Assembly (NCBI GenBank): GCA_002841685.1
Contig: PHAM01000059.1
Location: forward strand, 1 to 10,647
Origin: Elusimicrobia bacterium HGW-Elusimicrobia-2
Lineage (GTDB): Bacteria; CG03
Direction: 5' to 3'
DNA: 10,647 bases
Within the stretch, counting starts at the first letter, position 1, and the number at the start of each line of letters is the position of its first letter. Shown one piece after another: positions 3,417 through 10,529 of this stretch. Both the position numbers and the translations under genes were made by a program. Below the pieces are notes generated by a model. The model saw only the letters and a program-made list of their open reading frames with translations, did no database searches and was not told where the DNA came from.

Positions 3417-4304
3417 TCAGGGAAGGATGTTAAGTTCCGTAAAAGGGCAGTCAAAATTTGAATAAATGAGAAGTTCCGCTTTTATATTTTTTGACGGTAT
3501 CAAAAAATCTTTTTTTAATACGCTGATTAACCGCTGTGTCTGAATTTGGGAGATGGCGTTCTCAACAGTGTGGCATTTTATTTCAACTCCAGGGTCAGTT
3601 ATATGCGCAAAGACAGCCATGAGCGAGGAGATCATATCTTTTCCGGGGTCCGTTAAACGGTTATTATTATCAAACATATCAGCATTGCTCAGCTCCGCAG
3701 TCAGATTCCCGTCATAGTGTTTTATAATCATGCCGAATGAAAAAGCTTCGCCGTAAAAGCTGTATTTTTTCCCGTTGCCGGTGTTAAGGACCAGAAGAGG
3801 GGAATAGGGTACGCCGGGATGAAATTTTTTGATGTCTTCTTCTTTTATATTAATCTGATCGGGAACTTTTCCCTGCCCCCCGTACCGCGCCATTTTTTTT
3901 CCGCGCGAGTTAACTATAGTGATTTCCCAGGTTTTAACATCAGACGAGCATTCTATGATAAAGTTCCCGTAATAATAGGGTTCGGATGATTTCTTCCAAA
4001 TTATTGGGATTTTGCGGCTATGCAGCAGTGAAACAGTGTCCGAGATGAGGGAATGAACGGCGGGCCGGATTTTCCGTACATCAAGAAGGGGGAAAAAATC
4101 TTTGGTTATAATAGTACCGCTGATTTCCTCTAAATCGGGTTTCAAAAATTTGATAACAGGTTTTTTATCAGGATTTGTAATTACGACTTTTAGTTCTTCT
4201 GATGTTTTTCCGGTCAGCGGCACAATTTTTTCCGGTTCTTCACCGACAGCTAAGGTGGAAATGCTAATCAACAAAAGCGCTGTGGCATATAAGGTGTTTT
4301 TCAT
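3417..4304 (-). CDS. Exported OmpA-like protein with a degenerate peptidoglycan-binding domain
   Basis: Last gene of the operon, 295 residues. A signal peptide (MKNTLYATALLLISISTLAVG) gives a periplasmic protein; there is no lipobox, so it is not a Pal-type lipoprotein. Residues ~125-195 ('TWEITIVNSRGKKMARYGG' to 'KKYSFYGEAFSF') resemble the FlgD/Ig-like segment that precedes OmpA domains in many diderm proteins. Residues ~201-290 fit the OmpA C-terminal fold: 'ELSNADMFDNNNRLTDPGKDMISSL' matches the usual beta1/alpha1 region, 'VEIKCHTVEN' stands where GHTDN is expected, and 'QTQRLISVLKK' where LSxxRAxxV is expected. The diaminopimelate-contacting Asp is replaced by Val247, while R258 remains. 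The usual C-terminal GRxxNRRVE end is absent. The ATG overlaps the TonB-like gene's TGA (ATGA) with no Shine-Dalgarno, so translation is probably coupled. Likely the cell-wall or outer-envelope partner of the complex. Confidence 0.75.
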   Translation of the reverse strand: MKNTLYATALLLISISTLAVGEEPEKIVPLTGKTSEELKVVITNPDKKPVIKFLKPDLEEISGTIITKDFFPLLDVRKIRPAVHSLISDTVSLLHSRKIPIIWKKSSEPYYYGNFIIECSSDVKTWEITIVNSRGKKMARYGGQGKVPDQINIKEEDIKKFHPGVPYSPLLVLNTGNGKKYSFYGEAFSFGMIIKHYDGNLTAELSNADMFDNNNRLTDPGKDMISSLMAVFAHITDPGVEIKCHTVENAISQIQTQRLISVLKKDFLIPSKNIKAELLIYSNFDCPFTELNILP

Positions 4305-5419
4305 TGCAGTGAAAACTTAAAAGCTATTTCTCCGGTTTCCTCTTTCATGGAATTATTTCCTCTTAGGGGCGCGAAAACCCATCGCTCCAACTCTTTTATC
4401 GCAAGTTTGTCCAGTTTTGTGAAGCCTGAAGTCAACTTAACAAAAACTTTATTTTTTACACGGCCGTCAGGAAGCACCGTAAATCTTAGAACAACAACAG
4501 GGGCAACTCCTTCTCCGGCCAGCCAAACAGGATATGGAGGTATATAAGATTTTATAATTTTCCGGTTTTTTATTTCACCGGTGATTCTCATACCCACATC
4601 AGTGTTGGCGGATGAAGAGGGAAGCGATATTTCTTTATCCTCTTTTACGGGTGAGCTGTCAAGGTCTCTGCGGTTAAACGGAGTATCAGTGAGAGGATCC
4701 CCCGAGACTTTTTCTTTTTGACTGACCAATCCGGAAAAACTTTTTCCCGCATTAGCCGCCGGTTTTCCGTTCCCGCCCGGTTGGCTGATAGAGCTTGCGC
4801 CTTCAGCGGCAGTATCTGAGAGCCCTTCCCGCGATTTGCCGGACGCCGTCCTGTTTCTTTGGAGGGAGTCTGTATTTATCAGAGTATCTTTAACAGCAGG
4901 GAGGGGCATTGATTTAAAATGCCGCGCTTGGCCCAGCGACTGCTGATTTTTCAGAAACCCGCCTTTATCAATATGGCCCGCGAGCGTTTCTTTTTCAACT
5001 GTAGTTTTATTATTTCCAATGAACAATTCGCTGGAACTGCCTGCATTTTTTAATGAGGGCATGCTAAAATGAGAAGTTTTTTTATTTGTAATGTTCTTTA
5101 CATGATCAGCCGTTATAAGGGATACCGGTTTTATGAATCCGGTTTCAGTAACAGTGTTTTCAATAGGATTTTCTCCCGCATTGGAATTTATTTTCCCGTC
5201 AAACAGTATCAGGTCGGCCGACTGCTTTTGGATTTTCGCGATATCTTTCATTATAGCCGCCATTTTTTTATCTTCATGCCCAACGAAAGAAACTTCCGCA
5301 ACAGAAGCTTTGTTATTTATTATTTTTCCGCCTGTACCGGTTATAAACAGAAGGATCAGGAATATTATCAGGTGAATAGAGAAAGAACCTGCGAAGGGGT
5401 ACAGCAGATCACGAGTCAT
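4301..5419 (-). CDS. TonB/TolA-type energy transducer
   Basis: Inner-membrane protein spanning the periplasm that would pass proton-motive-force energy from the ExbB/ExbD complex to an outer partner. It has 372 residues from the start chosen here. A short cytoplasmic tail is followed by one membrane helix (~9-28) with the S-x-x-x-H motif (S12, H16) that in TonB and TolA contacts ExbD/TolR. A ~260-residue Ser/Asn/Lys/Gly-rich linker follows, without the Pro-Lys/Pro-Glu repeats of classical TonB. A typical TonB C-terminal domain occupies ~288-372 ('YPVWLAGEGVAP', 'FTVLPDGRV', 'LTSGFTKLDKLAIKELERWVFAPL'). I prefer ATG 5417-5419 because it makes an exact ATGA overlap with the upstream gene, as at three other junctions. 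An ATG at 5461 in the same frame would add 14 residues. Whether it is Ton-, Tol- or Glt-like cannot be decided; no TonB-dependent receptor is in view. Confidence 0.85.
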   Translation of the reverse strand: MTRDLLYPFAGSFSIHLIIFLILLFITGTGGKIINNKASVAEVSFVGHEDKKMAAIMKDIAKIQKQSADLILFDGKINSNAGENPIENTVTETGFIKPVSLITADHVKNITNKKTSHFSMPSLKNAGSSSELFIGNNKTTVEKETLAGHIDKGGFLKNQQSLGQARHFKSMPLPAVKDTLINTDSLQRNRTASGKSREGLSDTAAEGASSISQPGGNGKPAANAGKSFSGLVSQKEKVSGDPLTDTPFNRRDLDSSPVKEDKEISLPSSSANTDVGMRITGEIKNRKIIKSYIPPYPVWLAGEGVAPVVVLRFTVLPDGRVKNKVFVKLTSGFTKLDKLAIKELERWVFAPLRGNNSMKEETGEIAFKFSLQ

Positions 5420-5805
5420 TTTTTTTGCGCTACTCCAATGGATATTTTTTTTGCCCCGCATACCCGGCCGACGCTAAGCAGAGGTTCAATATCAGCATAT
5501 AAAAGTCTTTTGTCAGCCTGAATTAAAAGCGGGCTTGAGGGGGAAGCTTTTAATTCAGCGCTCAGCAGCTGTTTCAATTCACTGAAATTTATTTCCCGGC
5601 CGTCCATTCCAAGTATGCCTCCGGCGGTAAGCGACACTATGATCTGAGAGGATGTTTTATCCCGAGCCGTTTCCGATAAGGGCAGATCTATATCGGCGCT
5701 CTTGTTGGAAATGCCCGGTGATATCAGTATAAGGATAAGCAGGATCACCAGCGCCATGCTTGTTAACGGCATCATGTCAATATCGGTTACAGGTTCCATA
5801 TTCAT
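5416..5805 (-). CDS. ExbD/TolR-family protein lacking the proton-carrying Asp
   Basis: Second of two tandem ExbD/TolR proteins, 129 residues. A short cytoplasmic N terminus leads into one membrane helix ('MMPLTSMALVILLILILIS') and a periplasmic domain with normal ExbD features ('GGILGMDGREINFSELKQLL', 'LLIQADKRLLYADIEPLL', 'CGAKKISIGV'). In ExbD the helix reads P-x-x-D and that Asp (D25 in E. coli ExbD, D23 in TolR) is essential for proton use. Here the aligned position is S16 (P13-L-T-S16). It may be a structural partner of the first ExbD rather than a proton-conducting subunit. The start overlaps the preceding stop as ATGA. The upstream bases (CCCCCTCC) look like anti-Shine-Dalgarno rather than a ribosome site, so coupled re-initiation is likely. 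Confidence 0.85.
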   Translation of the reverse strand: MNMEPVTDIDMMPLTSMALVILLILILISPGISNKSADIDLPLSETARDKTSSQIIVSLTAGGILGMDGREINFSELKQLLSAELKASPSSPLLIQADKRLLYADIEPLLSVGRVCGAKKISIGVAQKK

Positions 5806-6200
5806 TGCGCGGAGGGGGTTTCAAGCAAAATTAAATTTTTTGCGCCTGCCAGGCGTGCCGAGTCAAATACTTTAACCAGGCGTTTTAGCGGGACGTCGCC
5901 GTCGGGAGCTATCACAACTTCTCTTTGGCTTCTTCCTGAAAGCTCTTTTTGAAGCCTCTTTTTTAACCTTGAAAAGGCAGTCGCCTGTCCGTTTACATAA
6001 AGTAATGTTTTTGAAACGCTCAAAAGCAGAATGCTTTCCCCGGAATAAATTTCACTTTTTCCGGATTGAGCGCTTCTAACCGCGTCTATATTTATGCCGT
6101 TCCAGAACATAGAAGGCAGCGTTACCAGAAAAACCACTATTAGAGTGAGAGCTGTGTCCGTAAGAGAAAGGACATTGGGCCGGACTTTATTTTCATACAT
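5802..6200 (-). CDS. ExbD/TolR-family proton-channel subunit with conserved Asp
   Basis: First of the tandem ExbD/TolR pair, 132 residues. The N terminus MYENKVRPNVLSLTD leads into the single membrane helix 'TALTLIVVFLVTLPSMFW'. D15 in 'SLTDTAL' aligns with the Asp that carries protons in ExbD and TolR, although the Pro three residues earlier is Ser. The periplasmic domain has 'LLYVNGQATAFSRLKKRLQ', 'REVVIAPDGDVPLKRLVKVFDSARLAGAKNLILLE', matching the usual ExbD fold. It acts in the inner membrane inside an ExbB/TolQ pentamer. The start overlaps the end of the ExbB-like gene by 8 bases (ATGTATGA), with a GGAG about 10 bases upstream. Together with the Ser-bearing paralogue it could form a heterodimer. 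Confidence 0.9.
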   Translation of the reverse strand: MYENKVRPNVLSLTDTALTLIVVFLVTLPSMFWNGINIDAVRSAQSGKSEIYSGESILLLSVSKTLLYVNGQATAFSRLKKRLQKELSGRSQREVVIAPDGDVPLKRLVKVFDSARLAGAKNLILLETPSAQ

Positions 6201-6834
6201 CTTCTTTTTTCTCCGCGTTTCTTATCTTTAATTCCGTTATTATTTCATCTCTTACAATGGAAAGAGCCTGAACGTTCACGGATATTTTTCGTACGAGATA
6301 ATTATAAAGGATCACAGCCGGAACGGCTATGCATATTCCCGCCGCTGTTGTAACGAGCGCCTCAGCGACCCCGACGGCTATGACCTCACCCCCTCCCTGG
6401 CCGGTTGAGGCGATGCTCTGGAAGGATTTGATTATTCCGACAACCGTTCCCAGAAGGCCGACAAGCGGGGCAATATGGCTGGCCGTACCGATCACGCCGA
6501 CGTTGTTTTCCATATGGACTTTCTCCGTGTTTATCACATTTGTCATAAGTTCATATATGATTACGGTATCTCTGTCAGGTTCCGCGAGGCCGCTTTCCAC
6601 CATTCTGGAGACGGGCGCGGGCTCTCTCCGGCAGACGCTGATTATTTCCGCAAATCTGTTTTCCGCAATCATTACTTTGATCCTTTGACAAAATTCCCGG
6701 ATGTCTTTTCTGTTTCTGACGAAATAGAGGATTCTTTCTATAGCATAGGTCAGAGAGACCAGTGAAATGAGCATAAGAATCCACATCGCGAAACTCTTTA
6801 TAAAGACCTGACTAACGGATAATTCATGCAACAT
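6193..6834 (-). CDS. ExbB/TolQ/MotA-family proton-channel protein
   Basis: Inner-membrane pentameric scaffold of the proton channel, 213 residues, a normal length for TolQ/ExbB. Three membrane helices are visible: ~15-37, ~113-138 and ~154-180, with the large cytoplasmic loop between the first two. Conserved parts are intact: 'IAPLVGLLGTVVGIIKSFQSI' (T130) in the second helix, and 'VAEALVTTAAGICIAVPAVILYNYLVRK' (E158, T162/T163) in the third, equivalent to E176 and T181 of E. coli ExbB. Translation starts at ATG 6834 behind a strong Shine-Dalgarno (GGGAGGA, 5 bases upstream), the best ribosome site in the operon. It follows an 89-base gap after the TPR gene and overlaps the first ExbD gene. 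Assignment to ExbB, TolQ or the gliding-motor homologue AglR cannot be made from sequence alone. Confidence 0.93.
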   Translation of the reverse strand: MLHELSVSQVFIKSFAMWILMLISLVSLTYAIERILYFVRNRKDIREFCQRIKVMIAENRFAEIISVCRREPAPVSRMVESGLAEPDRDTVIIYELMTNVINTEKVHMENNVGVIGTASHIAPLVGLLGTVVGIIKSFQSIASTGQGGGEVIAVGVAEALVTTAAGICIAVPAVILYNYLVRKISVNVQALSIVRDEIITELKIRNAEKKEDV

Positions 6835-6855
6835 TTATTCCTCCCGCCTCATGCC

Positions 6856-6875
6856 GGATCGCCGTCGAGGCGACC
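6856..6875 (-). other. Small hairpin between the TPR and ExbB/TolQ genes
   Basis: On the minus strand GGTCGCC and GGCGATCC pair (TCGCC/GGCGA plus GG/CC with one bulged base) around a TCGAC loop. No T run follows, so it is not a normal terminator. It lies in the only real intergenic gap of the operon, ~20 bases before the strong ribosome site of the ExbB-like gene. A role in mRNA processing or stability is possible; chance is also possible. Confidence 0.3.
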
Positions 6876-6923
6876 TATGCCAATTTGAGACTCTTTTTAC
6901 ACACTTGCCTGCTTTATTCATAT

Positions 6924-9900
6924 TTACTTCGGCGCCCCCGTGGAACCGATAGCTTGAAGCTGTTTTTTTTCGTTGATCTCGTTTATTTTTGCTTCCGCGG
7001 CGGCTATCCATTCCTCATTATCAGAAGTTTCCATAATTTTTTTGTAAACGGGAATTGCTTTATCATATAGATCCGCTTTTACATAAATTTCCGCAAGATC
7101 CACCAGCCCCGTCAGATAAAATGTTTTATCGGGGCTTTTCAGGTTTTGAAGTTTAATATAATAGCGTTCCGCATTTTCAATGTCGCCGGATTTCAGATAA
7201 CATTCCGCCGCGCGGTAAAGAGTTTCGGATTCGGCTGATCCGTATTTTTCCGAGTCCGCATAACTCCTGGCAGCTTCTTTATAATTGCCGTTATTGCGGT
7301 TGATTTCAGCTGCCTGAAACATCGCATAGCCTTTCTTTTCATGTGACGGATATTTTTTGATAAAATCCTCATATCCGGCTATGGCCTCGTCCCATTTTTT
7401 CATACGTTTATAGCATAGCGCTTTGTTGAGCGCCGCGTCAGGAGCGAATCCTTCCGCTTTCGGGTCATCCGCCAGAGCGCTGTAATAAAGGCAGCTTTCT
7501 TCTATTCTGCCCAGTTTAAAGAGAGCGTTTGCCATATGAAATCCGGCGGAATAACGCCTGCTGTTCTCCGGAAAACTGGTTATAAAATTGTTGAACGCGT
7601 TTATGGCGTCTTTGTTATTTTCCGCCATATATAGACTTTCGGCAAGGTAATACAGGGCCAGTTCTGACGATTGAGTTTGGGGATATTCAATTATGATCTT
7701 GCGGAATAGCGCAGATGCCTTTACATATTGTTTTTTTTCAAAGGCCCGTGTGCCGAGCTGCCAGTACGCTTCGCCCGCCATATCGCCGTCAGGATAGAGT
7801 TTTACAAACTCTGCAAGGCCCTGTCCGCCTGCATCCCGCAGGCCTTTTTCATAATACGCCATCCTGATATTTTCAAGGACATCTTTTTCTTTTTCATCGC
7901 CGGGGTAGAGCGCGATAAATTTTTTAAAATCAGCAATAGCCTGTGTAAATTTCCCGCTGTTATAATAACTTTGCGCTATGCGCATTTGCGCGTTTTTGGA
8001 TGATTCGCTTGAGGGGAAGCGCTGTTTGATTTTACGGTAATAAAACACAGCATCCGTGTAATTGCCGAGCCCGAAACTTGTGTAAGCAAGGCGGTTGTAA
8101 GCTTCCAACGTGTATTCGGAATTTTTATGGATTATTCTCTTCCAGCATTTTTGTGCTTCATCAATGTGCTGGAGTTTGAAAAAACATTCTCCCTGCAGAA
8201 AGAGGGCTTCATAAACAGCGTCGCCGCCGCTATAGTTTTTTAAAAAATCCTTATAATCGGCGATTGCTTTTCTGTAATTGCCGGCGTTAAAAAAAAGTCC
8301 CGCGGAAGAGAGGAGCGCGGCTTTCGCGACAGATTTATCGTCTTTGAATTTTTCGGAAAATTCACGGTTTTTGAGTTCTGCGGCGGCATATTCTCCCCTT
8401 AGGACTTTACAGGCGATATTCCCGCTTTCCGCAAATTTGACAGCGGGAGTTCCGGGATATGTCGCTATAATATATTCAAATGTTTTTTCGGCTTCGTTGA
8501 TTTTACCGCTGTTGTAATAAGCGTCCGCTATAATATAGTATGTCCATGATTTCCATTTAGCGGTGAAAAGATCTTCCTTGTCGGCTAATGACAGAATGCT
8601 TGTCATAAGGGTATCGTTGTCCCCTGAATTTACATATTGCATAGCCAGCATAAATAAGGCTTTGCCTCTTGTCTCAGCATCGTTTATGCTGTTTATTATT
8701 CCCTGAAATACTGTCGCAGACGCATTGCGGTTTCCTTCTCTGTAAAGACACATCCCTTTCATAAGAAGGATATTTTTTTCAGTATCACTGGATTTTATCC
8801 GCGGGCCTTCCAATATTTTTTCACAAACGGAAAGAGCGTTTTCATACTGGCCCGTGTTATAATAGAGAAGGGCGAGGTCGCATGATGCTGTTAAACTTAT
8901 GTTTTGGCCGGGATAGGCGGCAATAATTTCGCGGTATTTTTCATAAGCCGAATCATATTTTTTGATTTCAGCGCAGGATTTCGCCCATAGATGATGTGTG
9001 TATGCTTCCGGTTCCGTGCCGGTATATTTTTCCATAAAATATTTACAGTTCGCGATGGCCGCGGTATAGCGTCCGCTTTCATAGCGGCAGTATCCGGTCA
9101 TTAGCCTGGCGTATGGAGCGTAATCTCCGGCGGGATATTTGCTCAGGATGTTCAGAAAAATCCCCGCGGCGGAGTCATATTCTTTCATTTTGTAATAAAC
9201 GATGCCCTGCGCGAACATTGCGTCATCCTCAAGCCCCGTTTTCACGTTTCCCGCATAGATTTTTTTGTAGATGGCTCCCGCCTGTAAAAGAGCGCCCTCT
9301 GCCTCAATACATTTAGCGCGATAAAATTCGCTTAGTTCCAGGTTTTCAAAATCGGGGCTTTTAATTCTGGCGAAACAGGTTTCAGCTTCGCTATATCTGC
9401 TCTGATAATAAAGGATTAAACCTATACAATAGTTTGCCCTGTCACTTGTTTGGTACTGTTCGTATTTGGATAGCAGGCGGTTCATTATGTCTAATGCTGT
9501 TTTTGTTTCCCCTTTTTTCAGGTGGCATTGGGCCTTTGAAAATTCCGCTTCGGGTATCAGCCCTCCTTTTTTTGGGCTGATTTTCTCAAAGATTTCCATG
9601 GCTTCGTCGAACTTCCCGGTGTTATACAGGACTTCCGCTTTTCTGAAGGAGACGCAGTCATAAAATCCGTCTCCGGAAACCGTAGATAAAGCGGATGTAT
9701 AATGGCCCAGAGCTGTTGCATAGTCCTTGTTTTTGAAATTGAGTTCTCCGAGGATATAATGTTTATCAGTTTTTTCAATGGAGGTATTGTTTTGAAGTAA
9801 TTGCTCAAGCTTTTTTTCTTCATTTGAATTGAACAGGGTTATTATAGTTTTTCCAGGTTCTTCTAAACCCATAAGAATAGAAGTCCTTATTTTTGCGGTG

Positions 9901-10235
9901 ACCCAATCCGTGTTTTCCTGTTCCTGAAATTTTCCGGTTGCCGGTGGCGATAAAGAAATGATGCCGGGCTCATGTTCCGGGGTGATATTTTCTTTTTTGA
10001 GTATTTCAGCCGGGCCTTCTTTTACGTTTTGTCCAATGTACTCAATAAGGTTTGCTGGGTCGTTGCTCTGCGAGGCTGCGGACACGGATGGCGGATTATC
10101 TGCTTTTTCAGTCTCTTCCGGGATATTTTTCACAATTTTATCGGTGGGTATTGCTATTACCTGCGGAGCGGGCTGACGGGGAAGGGTTTTATATCCGAAA
10201 AAAGATATTGTTAGAGCGGCAAGCAGGTAGATCAT
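6924..10235 (-). CDS. Giant membrane-anchored tetratricopeptide-repeat protein
   Basis: An 1103-residue protein. The N terminus (IYLLAALTISFFGY, residues 2-15) is a short hydrophobic anchor or uncleaved signal with no positive charge before it. A polar, Pro/Glu-rich linker to about residue 110 follows. The rest is a long TPR solenoid, roughly two dozen repeats. Typical units are 'DEAMEIFEKI', 'QAIADFKKFIALYPGD', 'DAINAFNNFITSFPEN' and 'EAIAGYEDFIKKYPSH', with the 'YP' at repeat ends seen in YbgF/CpoB- and BamD-like TPRs. No enzyme domain is seen. ATG 10233-10235 overlaps the TGA of the DNA-binding gene (ATGA), and an in-frame TAA 7-9 bases upstream rules out a longer protein. A GGGAGG lies about 11 bases upstream. 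In Tol systems and the Agl/Glt machinery, TPR proteins are envelope scaffolds, so a periplasmic scaffold for the downstream motor is the likely role (inference). Confidence 0.9.
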   Translation of the reverse strand: MIYLLAALTISFFGYKTLPRQPAPQVIAIPTDKIVKNIPEETEKADNPPSVSAASQSNDPANLIEYIGQNVKEGPAEILKKENITPEHEPGIISLSPPATGKFQEQENTDWVTAKIRTSILMGLEEPGKTIITLFNSNEEKKLEQLLQNNTSIEKTDKHYILGELNFKNKDYATALGHYTSALSTVSGDGFYDCVSFRKAEVLYNTGKFDEAMEIFEKISPKKGGLIPEAEFSKAQCHLKKGETKTALDIMNRLLSKYEQYQTSDRANYCIGLILYYQSRYSEAETCFARIKSPDFENLELSEFYRAKCIEAEGALLQAGAIYKKIYAGNVKTGLEDDAMFAQGIVYYKMKEYDSAAGIFLNILSKYPAGDYAPYARLMTGYCRYESGRYTAAIANCKYFMEKYTGTEPEAYTHHLWAKSCAEIKKYDSAYEKYREIIAAYPGQNISLTASCDLALLYYNTGQYENALSVCEKILEGPRIKSSDTEKNILLMKGMCLYREGNRNASATVFQGIINSINDAETRGKALFMLAMQYVNSGDNDTLMTSILSLADKEDLFTAKWKSWTYYIIADAYYNSGKINEAEKTFEYIIATYPGTPAVKFAESGNIACKVLRGEYAAAELKNREFSEKFKDDKSVAKAALLSSAGLFFNAGNYRKAIADYKDFLKNYSGGDAVYEALFLQGECFFKLQHIDEAQKCWKRIIHKNSEYTLEAYNRLAYTSFGLGNYTDAVFYYRKIKQRFPSSESSKNAQMRIAQSYYNSGKFTQAIADFKKFIALYPGDEKEKDVLENIRMAYYEKGLRDAGGQGLAEFVKLYPDGDMAGEAYWQLGTRAFEKKQYVKASALFRKIIIEYPQTQSSELALYYLAESLYMAENNKDAINAFNNFITSFPENSRRYSAGFHMANALFKLGRIEESCLYYSALADDPKAEGFAPDAALNKALCYKRMKKWDEAIAGYEDFIKKYPSHEKKGYAMFQAAEINRNNGNYKEAARSYADSEKYGSAESETLYRAAECYLKSGDIENAERYYIKLQNLKSPDKTFYLTGLVDLAEIYVKADLYDKAIPVYKKIMETSDNEEWIAAAEAKINEINEKKQLQAIGSTGAPK

Positions 10236-10468
10236 TTGTTTTTATGCCTCCCGTTTTTCACGGTGACGCCGCGCCTCTGATTTTTCTTTCCGGCGGCAAA
10301 CAAGTTAAGAGAGTCCAGCCAATTTTCCAGAACAGATTTTTTGAACCGCCACGAGCCACCTATCTTAAAACAGGGTATTTTGCTGTTTGTGATCATCCGG
10401 TAAATAGTTTTTTCATTTAACTGAAGATAATCAGCAACCTGCCTAATGGTTAAAATTTCACGTATCAA
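10232..10468 (-). CDS. Excisionase/MerR-type winged-helix DNA-binding protein
   Basis: First gene of the operon, 78 residues. Residues 6-51 match the small HTH family found in excisionases and MerR-like regulators (helix_turn_helix_17 type): 'LTIRQVADYLQLNEKTIYRMI' forms the helix-turn-helix, 'IPCFKIGGSWRFKKSVLENWL' the wing and last helix. The C-terminal ~25 residues are basic and disordered-looking (KKNQRRG, GRHKNK). No integrase or phage gene is nearby, so a local regulator is more likely than a true excisionase. The start is TTG (10466-10468), with AGGAG 7 bases upstream and the HTH beginning at once. The strong promoter is ~32 bp upstream. The TGA overlaps the TPR gene start as ATGA, tying the two translationally. 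Autoregulation is plausible but not shown. Confidence 0.88.
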   Translation of the reverse strand: MIREILTIRQVADYLQLNEKTIYRMITNSKIPCFKIGGSWRFKKSVLENWLDSLNLFAAGKKNQRRGVTVKNGRHKNK

Positions 10469-10499: not shown

Positions 10500-10529
10500 A
10501 TTATAATACCAAAATGTCCAGTATGTCAA
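10500..10529 (-). promoter_or_regulatory. Consensus sigma70 promoter of the envelope operon
   Basis: Minus strand: TTGACA (10524-10529), an 18-bp spacer, TATAAT (10500-10505), both hexamers perfect. Transcription would start near 10493, about 25 bases before the TTG start of the DNA-binding gene, and could run through six downstream genes. No other convincing promoter was seen inside the operon. Confidence 0.8.
10514..10527 (-). repeat. Direct repeat GACAT-N4-GACAT in the operon promoter
   Basis: On the minus strand GACAT occurs twice with a 9-bp period (10523-10527 and 10514-10518), overlapping the -35 box and the spacer. A third copy in the opposite orientation lies at 10563-10567. This could be an operator for the adjacent DNA-binding protein, but a 5-bp repeat can arise by chance. 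Confidence 0.3.

Follow-up and report, generated by a model that had tools for sequence, protein, structure and literature searches.

The window analysed here is the complete contig C8 (PHAM01000059.1; 10,647 bp) of the draft genome G000 of Elusimicrobia bacterium HGW-Elusimicrobia-2 (1.78 Mb, 96% complete). Seven co-directional open reading frames on its minus strand, running from position 10468 to 3417, encode in this order a helix-turn-helix (HTH) DNA-binding protein, a giant tetratricopeptide repeat (TPR) protein, the motor subunit ExbB, two different ExbD proteins (ExbD1 and ExbD2), a TonB-like transducer and a terminal protein with immunoglobulin (Ig)-like and OmpA-like domains. Pfam matches above the gathering cut-offs were obtained for HTH_17, TPR arrays, MotA_ExbB, two ExbD domains and TonB_C. 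The features are the following (aa, amino acids; TM, transmembrane; all on the minus strand):

10500..10529, minus: promoter TTGACA-18-TATAAT, 12/12 consensus match
10232..10468, minus: HTH_17 DNA-binding protein, 78 aa, TTG start (Pfam HTH_17, 59 bits)
6924..10235, minus: TPR scaffold, 1103 aa, with N-terminal hydrophobic segment (TPR arrays)
6193..6834, minus: ExbB/TolQ-like motor subunit, 213 aa (MotA_ExbB, 104 bits; clusters in the tree with the ExbBs from other loci of the module)
5802..6200, minus: ExbD1, TM aspartate kept in the motif LSLTD (ExbD, 62 bits; D1 lineage in the tree)
5416..5805, minus: ExbD2, TM aspartate replaced by serine, PLTS in place of PLxD (ExbD, 71 bits; D2 lineage)
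4301..5461, minus: TonB-like transducer with TM helix bearing SxxxH, long linker and TonB_C (31.9 bits, cut-off 24.6); probable start 5419 (372 aa)
3417..4304, minus: protein with signal helix, Ig-like domain and predicted OmpA fold (AlphaFold2 model; fold search)

ATGA overlaps join the HTH and TPR genes, the two ExbD genes, ExbD2 and TonB, and TonB and the OmpA-like gene, the third of these holding if the transducer starts at 5419 and not at 5461 (386 aa). ExbB and ExbD1 overlap by 8 bp, and the gap between TPR and ExbB is 89 bp. The contig ends upstream of the HTH gene. The promoter hexamers, their spacing and similar downstream bases are kept before the orthologous HTH gene of the sister genome G001 (locus L080, VMTI01000094), where the DNA upstream of the promoter diverges from that of the window; because hexamers and spacing are kept despite this divergence, the promoter is more than a chance match. 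From their arrangement the seven genes would form a single operon, and the reading frames, junctions and promoter agree with the original prediction, which had proposed the same unit from seven genes on one strand, four ATGA overlaps and a consensus promoter. In L080 an OmpR-type response regulator gene (396-1106) stands divergent from the operon.

Within the 16 genomes of the window's phylum the module is patchy, occurring in G000, G001, G004 and G013. The G001 locus reads HTH-TPR-ExbB up to a contig end; in G004 (Elusimicrobia bacterium CG08_land_8_20_14_0_20_44_26, PEXM01000084) the TPR gene lies at one contig end and ExbD2-TonB-OmpA on another contig, and G013 has the complete module without the HTH gene. 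Identity to the TPR protein of the window is 74% in G001, ~60% in G004 and 24% in G013. The regulator predicted at the head of the operon is present in the window and, as an orthologue at the same place, in G001, but it is absent from the module head in G004, G013 and the other phyla; it is genus-specific and lies outside the conserved module.

Searches with a profile of the TonB-like protein over 386 genomes, and with an ExbB profile over the phyla of the matches, recovered the order TPR (~1000 aa)-ExbB-ExbD-ExbD-TonB (310-450 aa)-Ig/OmpA in five further phylum-level groups, six with the window's. Conservation of the gene order in related genomes, on which the original prediction had staked itself, extends in this way to other phyla. 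Its proposal of a self-contained envelope motor, in which one ExbB and two ExbDs come with a transducer and an OmpA-fold protein of their own, is supported. In the ExbD tree the first ExbDs form one group across phyla and the second ExbDs another, which places the duplication before the spread over phyla. The ExbB tree recovers the clades of the ExbD tree and sets the module ExbBs apart from those of single-ExbD systems, including the genome's own second motor on contig C78; in one ExbB tree two long-branched non-module sequences fell among the module ExbBs. The window belongs to clade I, whose other members come from the phyla of G353 and G187 (support 100/99 for ExbD1+ExbD2 and 92/88 for ExbB). 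The ExbB tree joins the window to the loci of the G353 phylum at 100/99 and is the safer of the two, because the ExbD1 of the window is a long branch. The spread over phyla suggests that the module moved between them as one unit. In the literature on ExbD heterodimers, FlgD-Ig sorting domains and the type IX secretion system (T9SS) with ExbB/ExbD we found no description of this six-gene module.

The TM helix of ExbD, TolR and MotB bears a proton-binding aspartate (PMC9389320). The serine found at this position in the ExbD2 of the window recurs in the ExbD2 of G004. Among 62 complete pairs (59 of the main set, the window, G013 and L225), the states of ExbD1/ExbD2 were D/D in 43, D/N in 10, and D/A, D/S and N/D in three each. 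The aspartate is gone from exactly one partner in 19 pairs (ExbD2 in 16, ExbD1 in three) and from both partners in none of the 62, and it is kept in 37/37 single-ExbD loci. Locus L225 had been a candidate for an Asp-less single-ExbD locus and was rejected as such, as it proved to be a dual D/N locus. The tree requires about four separate losses, in ExbD1 as well as in ExbD2, with ExbD1 as the partner affected in clade IV. Genome G431 holds three module copies (L195, L199, L200) in three states, D/A, D/N and D/S.

This pattern suggests an axle composed of an ExbD1:ExbD2 heterodimer with one proton site. Because either paralogue can lose the aspartate and the partner without it remains well conserved as an ExbD, both proteins would sit in one ExbB pentamer; one would not expect an inactive homodimer to persist for so long. 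Alternatively, ExbD2 might be regulatory or inactive, either in one of two separate homodimeric complexes or as an inhibitory subunit, and not part of an obligate heterodimer. Such a role would agree with the Asp loss in the window and with the homodimeric state of 5:2 motors of known structure, and the pairing of TolR-like proteins of the AglQ/AglS kind with each other is stated as unknown (PMC9389320). It is, however, unlikely: clade IV lost the aspartate in ExbD1, so that inactivity is not tied to one particular paralogue, both aspartates are retained at 43 loci, and the ExbD1/ExbD2 gene overlap suggests coupled synthesis.

A further regularity of the dual loci concerns position -6 from the aspartate, which is Asn in 102/104 Asp-keeping ExbDs and Asp or Glu in 13/19 Asp-less ones. 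Compensation for the lost aspartate by an acidic residue at -6 was considered and is not claimed, as single-ExbD controls often carry an acidic -6 plus the aspartate, and only four events fall on the tree (sign test p 0.25).

The TM histidine of the transducer is present in 18/18 module TonB proteins compared (the window and 17 relatives), with the full SxxxH in 15/18; it reads SFSIH in the window. The SxxxH of TonB and TolA contacts the motor (PMC12204202), and with the histidine and motif retained, the transducer probably engages ExbB as such proteins usually do. The ExbB, ExbD and TonB_C domains would also be expected of a dedicated TonB system for nutrient uptake via a TonB-dependent receptor encoded elsewhere. 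No receptor was recognised in the module loci of any phylum, and their constant members are instead the large TPR and OmpA-fold proteins; we regard this alternative as highly improbable. Terminal proteins of the module (L145:9294-10208, L146:8972-9889 and others) often have an EVVVKG-like strand at the mature N-terminus, a segment that could be a candidate for binding by the TonB C-terminal domain.

The terminal protein of the window had been called OmpA-like. Pfam gave no match to it, nor did a sequence search of the PDB, but the fold search did. The AlphaFold2 model (mean pLDDT, the predicted local distance difference test score, of 62; ordered part about 80) begins with the signal helix and ~100 residues of low confidence, followed by an Ig-like domain at 123-197 and, at 200-294, a domain of beta-alpha-beta-alpha-beta-beta order. 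Residues 200-294 matched Salmonella OmpA with Z 12.3 (root mean square deviation 2.1 over 97 residues) and a Dot/Icm OMC protein with Z 13.4, and the domain is, as modelled, an OmpA fold. A relative in G013 scores FlgD_ig, and a profile of the terminal-protein relatives matches the last gene of most module loci. The sequence has no lipobox cysteine after the signal helix, so the protein is no lipoprotein of the Pal type.

This last point bears on another reading, a Tol-Pal-like tether for outer-membrane integrity and division, in which the TonB-like protein would correspond to TolA, the OmpA-fold protein to Pal and the TPR protein to CpoB. The TolQ and YbgF/CpoB models are indeed the best-scoring of the named equivalogs, the terminal protein has the required fold, and no canonical tol-pal motor was found elsewhere in the genome, whose other TolQ/ExbB-like motor is that of C78. 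The tolQ/tolR scores are nevertheless all far under the curated cut-offs, TolB is absent from the operon and from the loci of other phyla, the terminal protein carries an Ig-like domain in addition to lacking the lipobox, and the patchy occurrence in the phylum is unlike that of a housekeeping system. A separate Tol-Pal locus in G000 was also considered and dismissed, because its TolB_N matches sit in CsgG/LpoB-like domain proteins. The kinship with Tol-Pal drawn in the original prediction was not supported, and we consider this reading improbable; its remark that neither TolB nor a TonB-dependent receptor was in view was borne out, as neither was recognised in the module.

The surroundings of the module in relatives point to a different partner. 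Most relatives with enough upstream DNA have two further genes directly before the TPR gene. The nearer one encodes a PorV-like outer-membrane protein of 410-460 aa, with PorV_fam above cut-off in six of eight relatives tested (L043, L145, L233, L234, L241 and L232, where it forms the N-terminal part of the TPR protein). The same fusion of an N-terminal PorV domain to the TPR protein is seen in L231, where the contig end cuts it; both L231 and L232 belong to clade I. The AlphaFold2 model of the L145 protein matched PorV of the T9SS translocon with Z 31.6-31.7, a score that FadL equalled. The Ig domain at the C-terminus of the L145 protein matched the C-terminal domain of PorU (Z 12.1). The farther gene encodes a giant secreted Ig-repeat protein, with FlgD_ig at its end in 12/12 tested; the one beside the clade-mate L232 passes the cut-off of TIGR04183 (T9SS type A sorting domain). 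SprA_N was found in 13/19 module genomes, where the frames that carry it span ~1250 to 2750 codons; of 14 controls, none had it. The genome of the window itself encodes secreted proteins ending in FlgD_ig/CHU_C domains. In the T9SS, GldLM drives the exit of substrates from SprA, which they leave on PorV by means of their C-terminal domain (PMC10994853). The PorV and cargo neighbours, together with the SprA-like genes in relatives, make it most likely that a type IX-like machine is what the module energises; in the organism of the window itself, this role would be carried over from its relatives.

Several observations weigh against this assignment and against the mixed axle. The contig of the window carries neither a PorV nor a cargo gene, the loci of the genus are headed by the HTH gene, and the upstream genes in G004 are unrelated. 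SprA_N had no match at 0.001 in G000 and G001, and its co-occurrence with the module may reflect phylum only, as the controls were not module-less genomes of the same phyla. The PorV/cargo pair is absent from clade IV (G294, G157), and no GldK/N was seen in the module loci, GldL/GldM not having been searched for. As to the axle, about four loss events make the absence of double losses neither proof nor statistically decisive, and a single aspartate is not needed for the system, since 43/62 pairs keep both.

On balance, we see about an even chance that the operon encodes a proton-driven envelope motor with a heterodimeric axle, most likely energising a type IX-like export or attachment machine. 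An ExbB pentamer would surround one ExbD1 and one ExbD2, with the single canonical proton-binding aspartate of the axle on ExbD1. The TonB-like protein would carry the motion of the motor, presumably rotation, across the periplasm to its partners at the outer membrane, namely the 1103-aa TPR protein and the terminal Ig/OmpA-fold protein, to which the transducer may couple. The work done would be the energising of a PorV-like carrier, secreted Ig-tailed proteins and a SprA-like translocon, probably for the export or attachment of surface proteins, with the module in the role of GldL/GldM of Bacteroidota. More tentatively, it is possible that in at least six phylum-level groups ExbB-ExbD1-ExbD2-TonB powers a type IX-like export or attachment machine in place of GldLM, that its axle is an obligate heterodimer of which several lineages have independently given up one aspartate, and that the 5:2 motor then runs on one.

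It is an open question whether TolR/ExbD-like proteins that occur in pairs assemble as homo- or heterodimers (PMC9389320), and likewise whether a 5:2 rotary motor needs both axle aspartates. Repeated natural removals of one aspartate, from either paralogue and never from both in the pairs seen, open the two questions to direct tests. Should the link to type IX prove right, SprA/PorV-like systems beyond Bacteroidota would gain a motor, and one operon would unite elements of Ton, Tol and type IX.

Further motors were noted in the genome and its relatives. The C78 locus (L051:6327-17010) has the order TPR-barrel-ExbB-ExbD-TonB, in full a T9SS-tail-like 858-aa protein, a PorV-like+TPR protein, a cNMP-binding protein, a 945-aa TPR protein, a 507-aa putative barrel, ExbB, ExbD and TonB. 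With 69 bits its PorV-like protein stays under the cut-off of 90, and a cargo with a FlgD_ig/CHU_C-type end is present at the locus. The TPR-barrel-ExbB-ExbD-TonB order is found repeatedly within the phylum and also outside it (L037, L149, L155). Barrel-like proteins of ~490 aa (L092, L097, L098, L099) share the mature N-terminus LDLPxVxVWGxDxS, which is TonB box-like; no Pfam plug or receptor domain was found in the two members tested (L051, L037). Loci L041, L093 and L095 (G007, G005, G006) are a mirror image, with tandem ExbBs (one of 450-508 aa) and one ExbD or none in view. The small genome G000 also has rotor-like parts on C48, where a 454-aa protein (L052:2366-4500) with FliF-C, FliG-M and FliG-C matches adjoins a MotA-like gene, and on C79 (L054:2225-7900) a 1282-aa coiled-coil-like protein is followed by MotA-like and MotB/OmpA-like genes.

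Outside the operon the window contains a TadA-like deaminase (2189-2632, minus; 81.7 bits, below cut-off) and a permease (1-954, plus) with weak NCBIfam matches, all sulP-type; the two may perhaps serve nucleobase salvage.

Among known systems, AglR/AglQ/AglS of Myxococcus xanthus (Agl-Glt, Nfs) resembles the module, by parts list only, in its one TolQ-like and two TolR-like proteins (PMC3169522) and in having partners of the TPR and TonB types; GltC/GltE and AgmX/PglI also scored weakly. A gliding motor of this kind, driving surface adhesins, overlaps with the favoured type IX-like role, since the T9SS energy chain of Bacteroidota also drives gliding (PMC10994853). The original prediction had placed the operon in the Agl/Glt class: the parts list stands, but AglQ and AglS are both described with the aspartate (PMC9389320), no further Glt proteins were recognised in the module, and the partners in Myxococcus are spread over several loci (PMC3169522). 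We hold a gliding motor proper to be improbable. The ExbD2 Asp loss and the PorV/type IX-like neighbours of relatives were overlooked in that prediction.

Tol-Pal shares with the module a TolQ/TolR-like motor and TPR and OmpA-fold proteins, whereas here there are two TolR-like proteins, no TolB and an OmpA-fold protein without lipobox. In PMC12204202 (2025, Fig. 4a), a system is drawn with a TPR gene, one TolQ-like, two different TolR-like proteins and a TM-anchored transducer in a row; its transducer ends in vWA and not, as here, in TonB_C, and the module adds an Ig/OmpA-fold protein downstream and, in relatives, PorV plus cargo upstream. Asp loss is not mentioned for that system in the section of the source that describes it. 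The T9SS energy chain (GldLM, SprE/PorW TPR, PorV, PorE, SprA) likewise combines a motor driven by the proton motive force with a TPR and an OmpA-fold protein, and its PorV-family carrier and Ig-like C-terminal cargo domains have counterparts beside the module in relatives, with SprA-like genes in most module genomes; the motor here is ExbB/ExbD/TonB and not GldL/GldM. Within the ExbBD/TolQR motor class, the module is best described as a variant whose axle is mixed and which probably drives a type IX-like machine.

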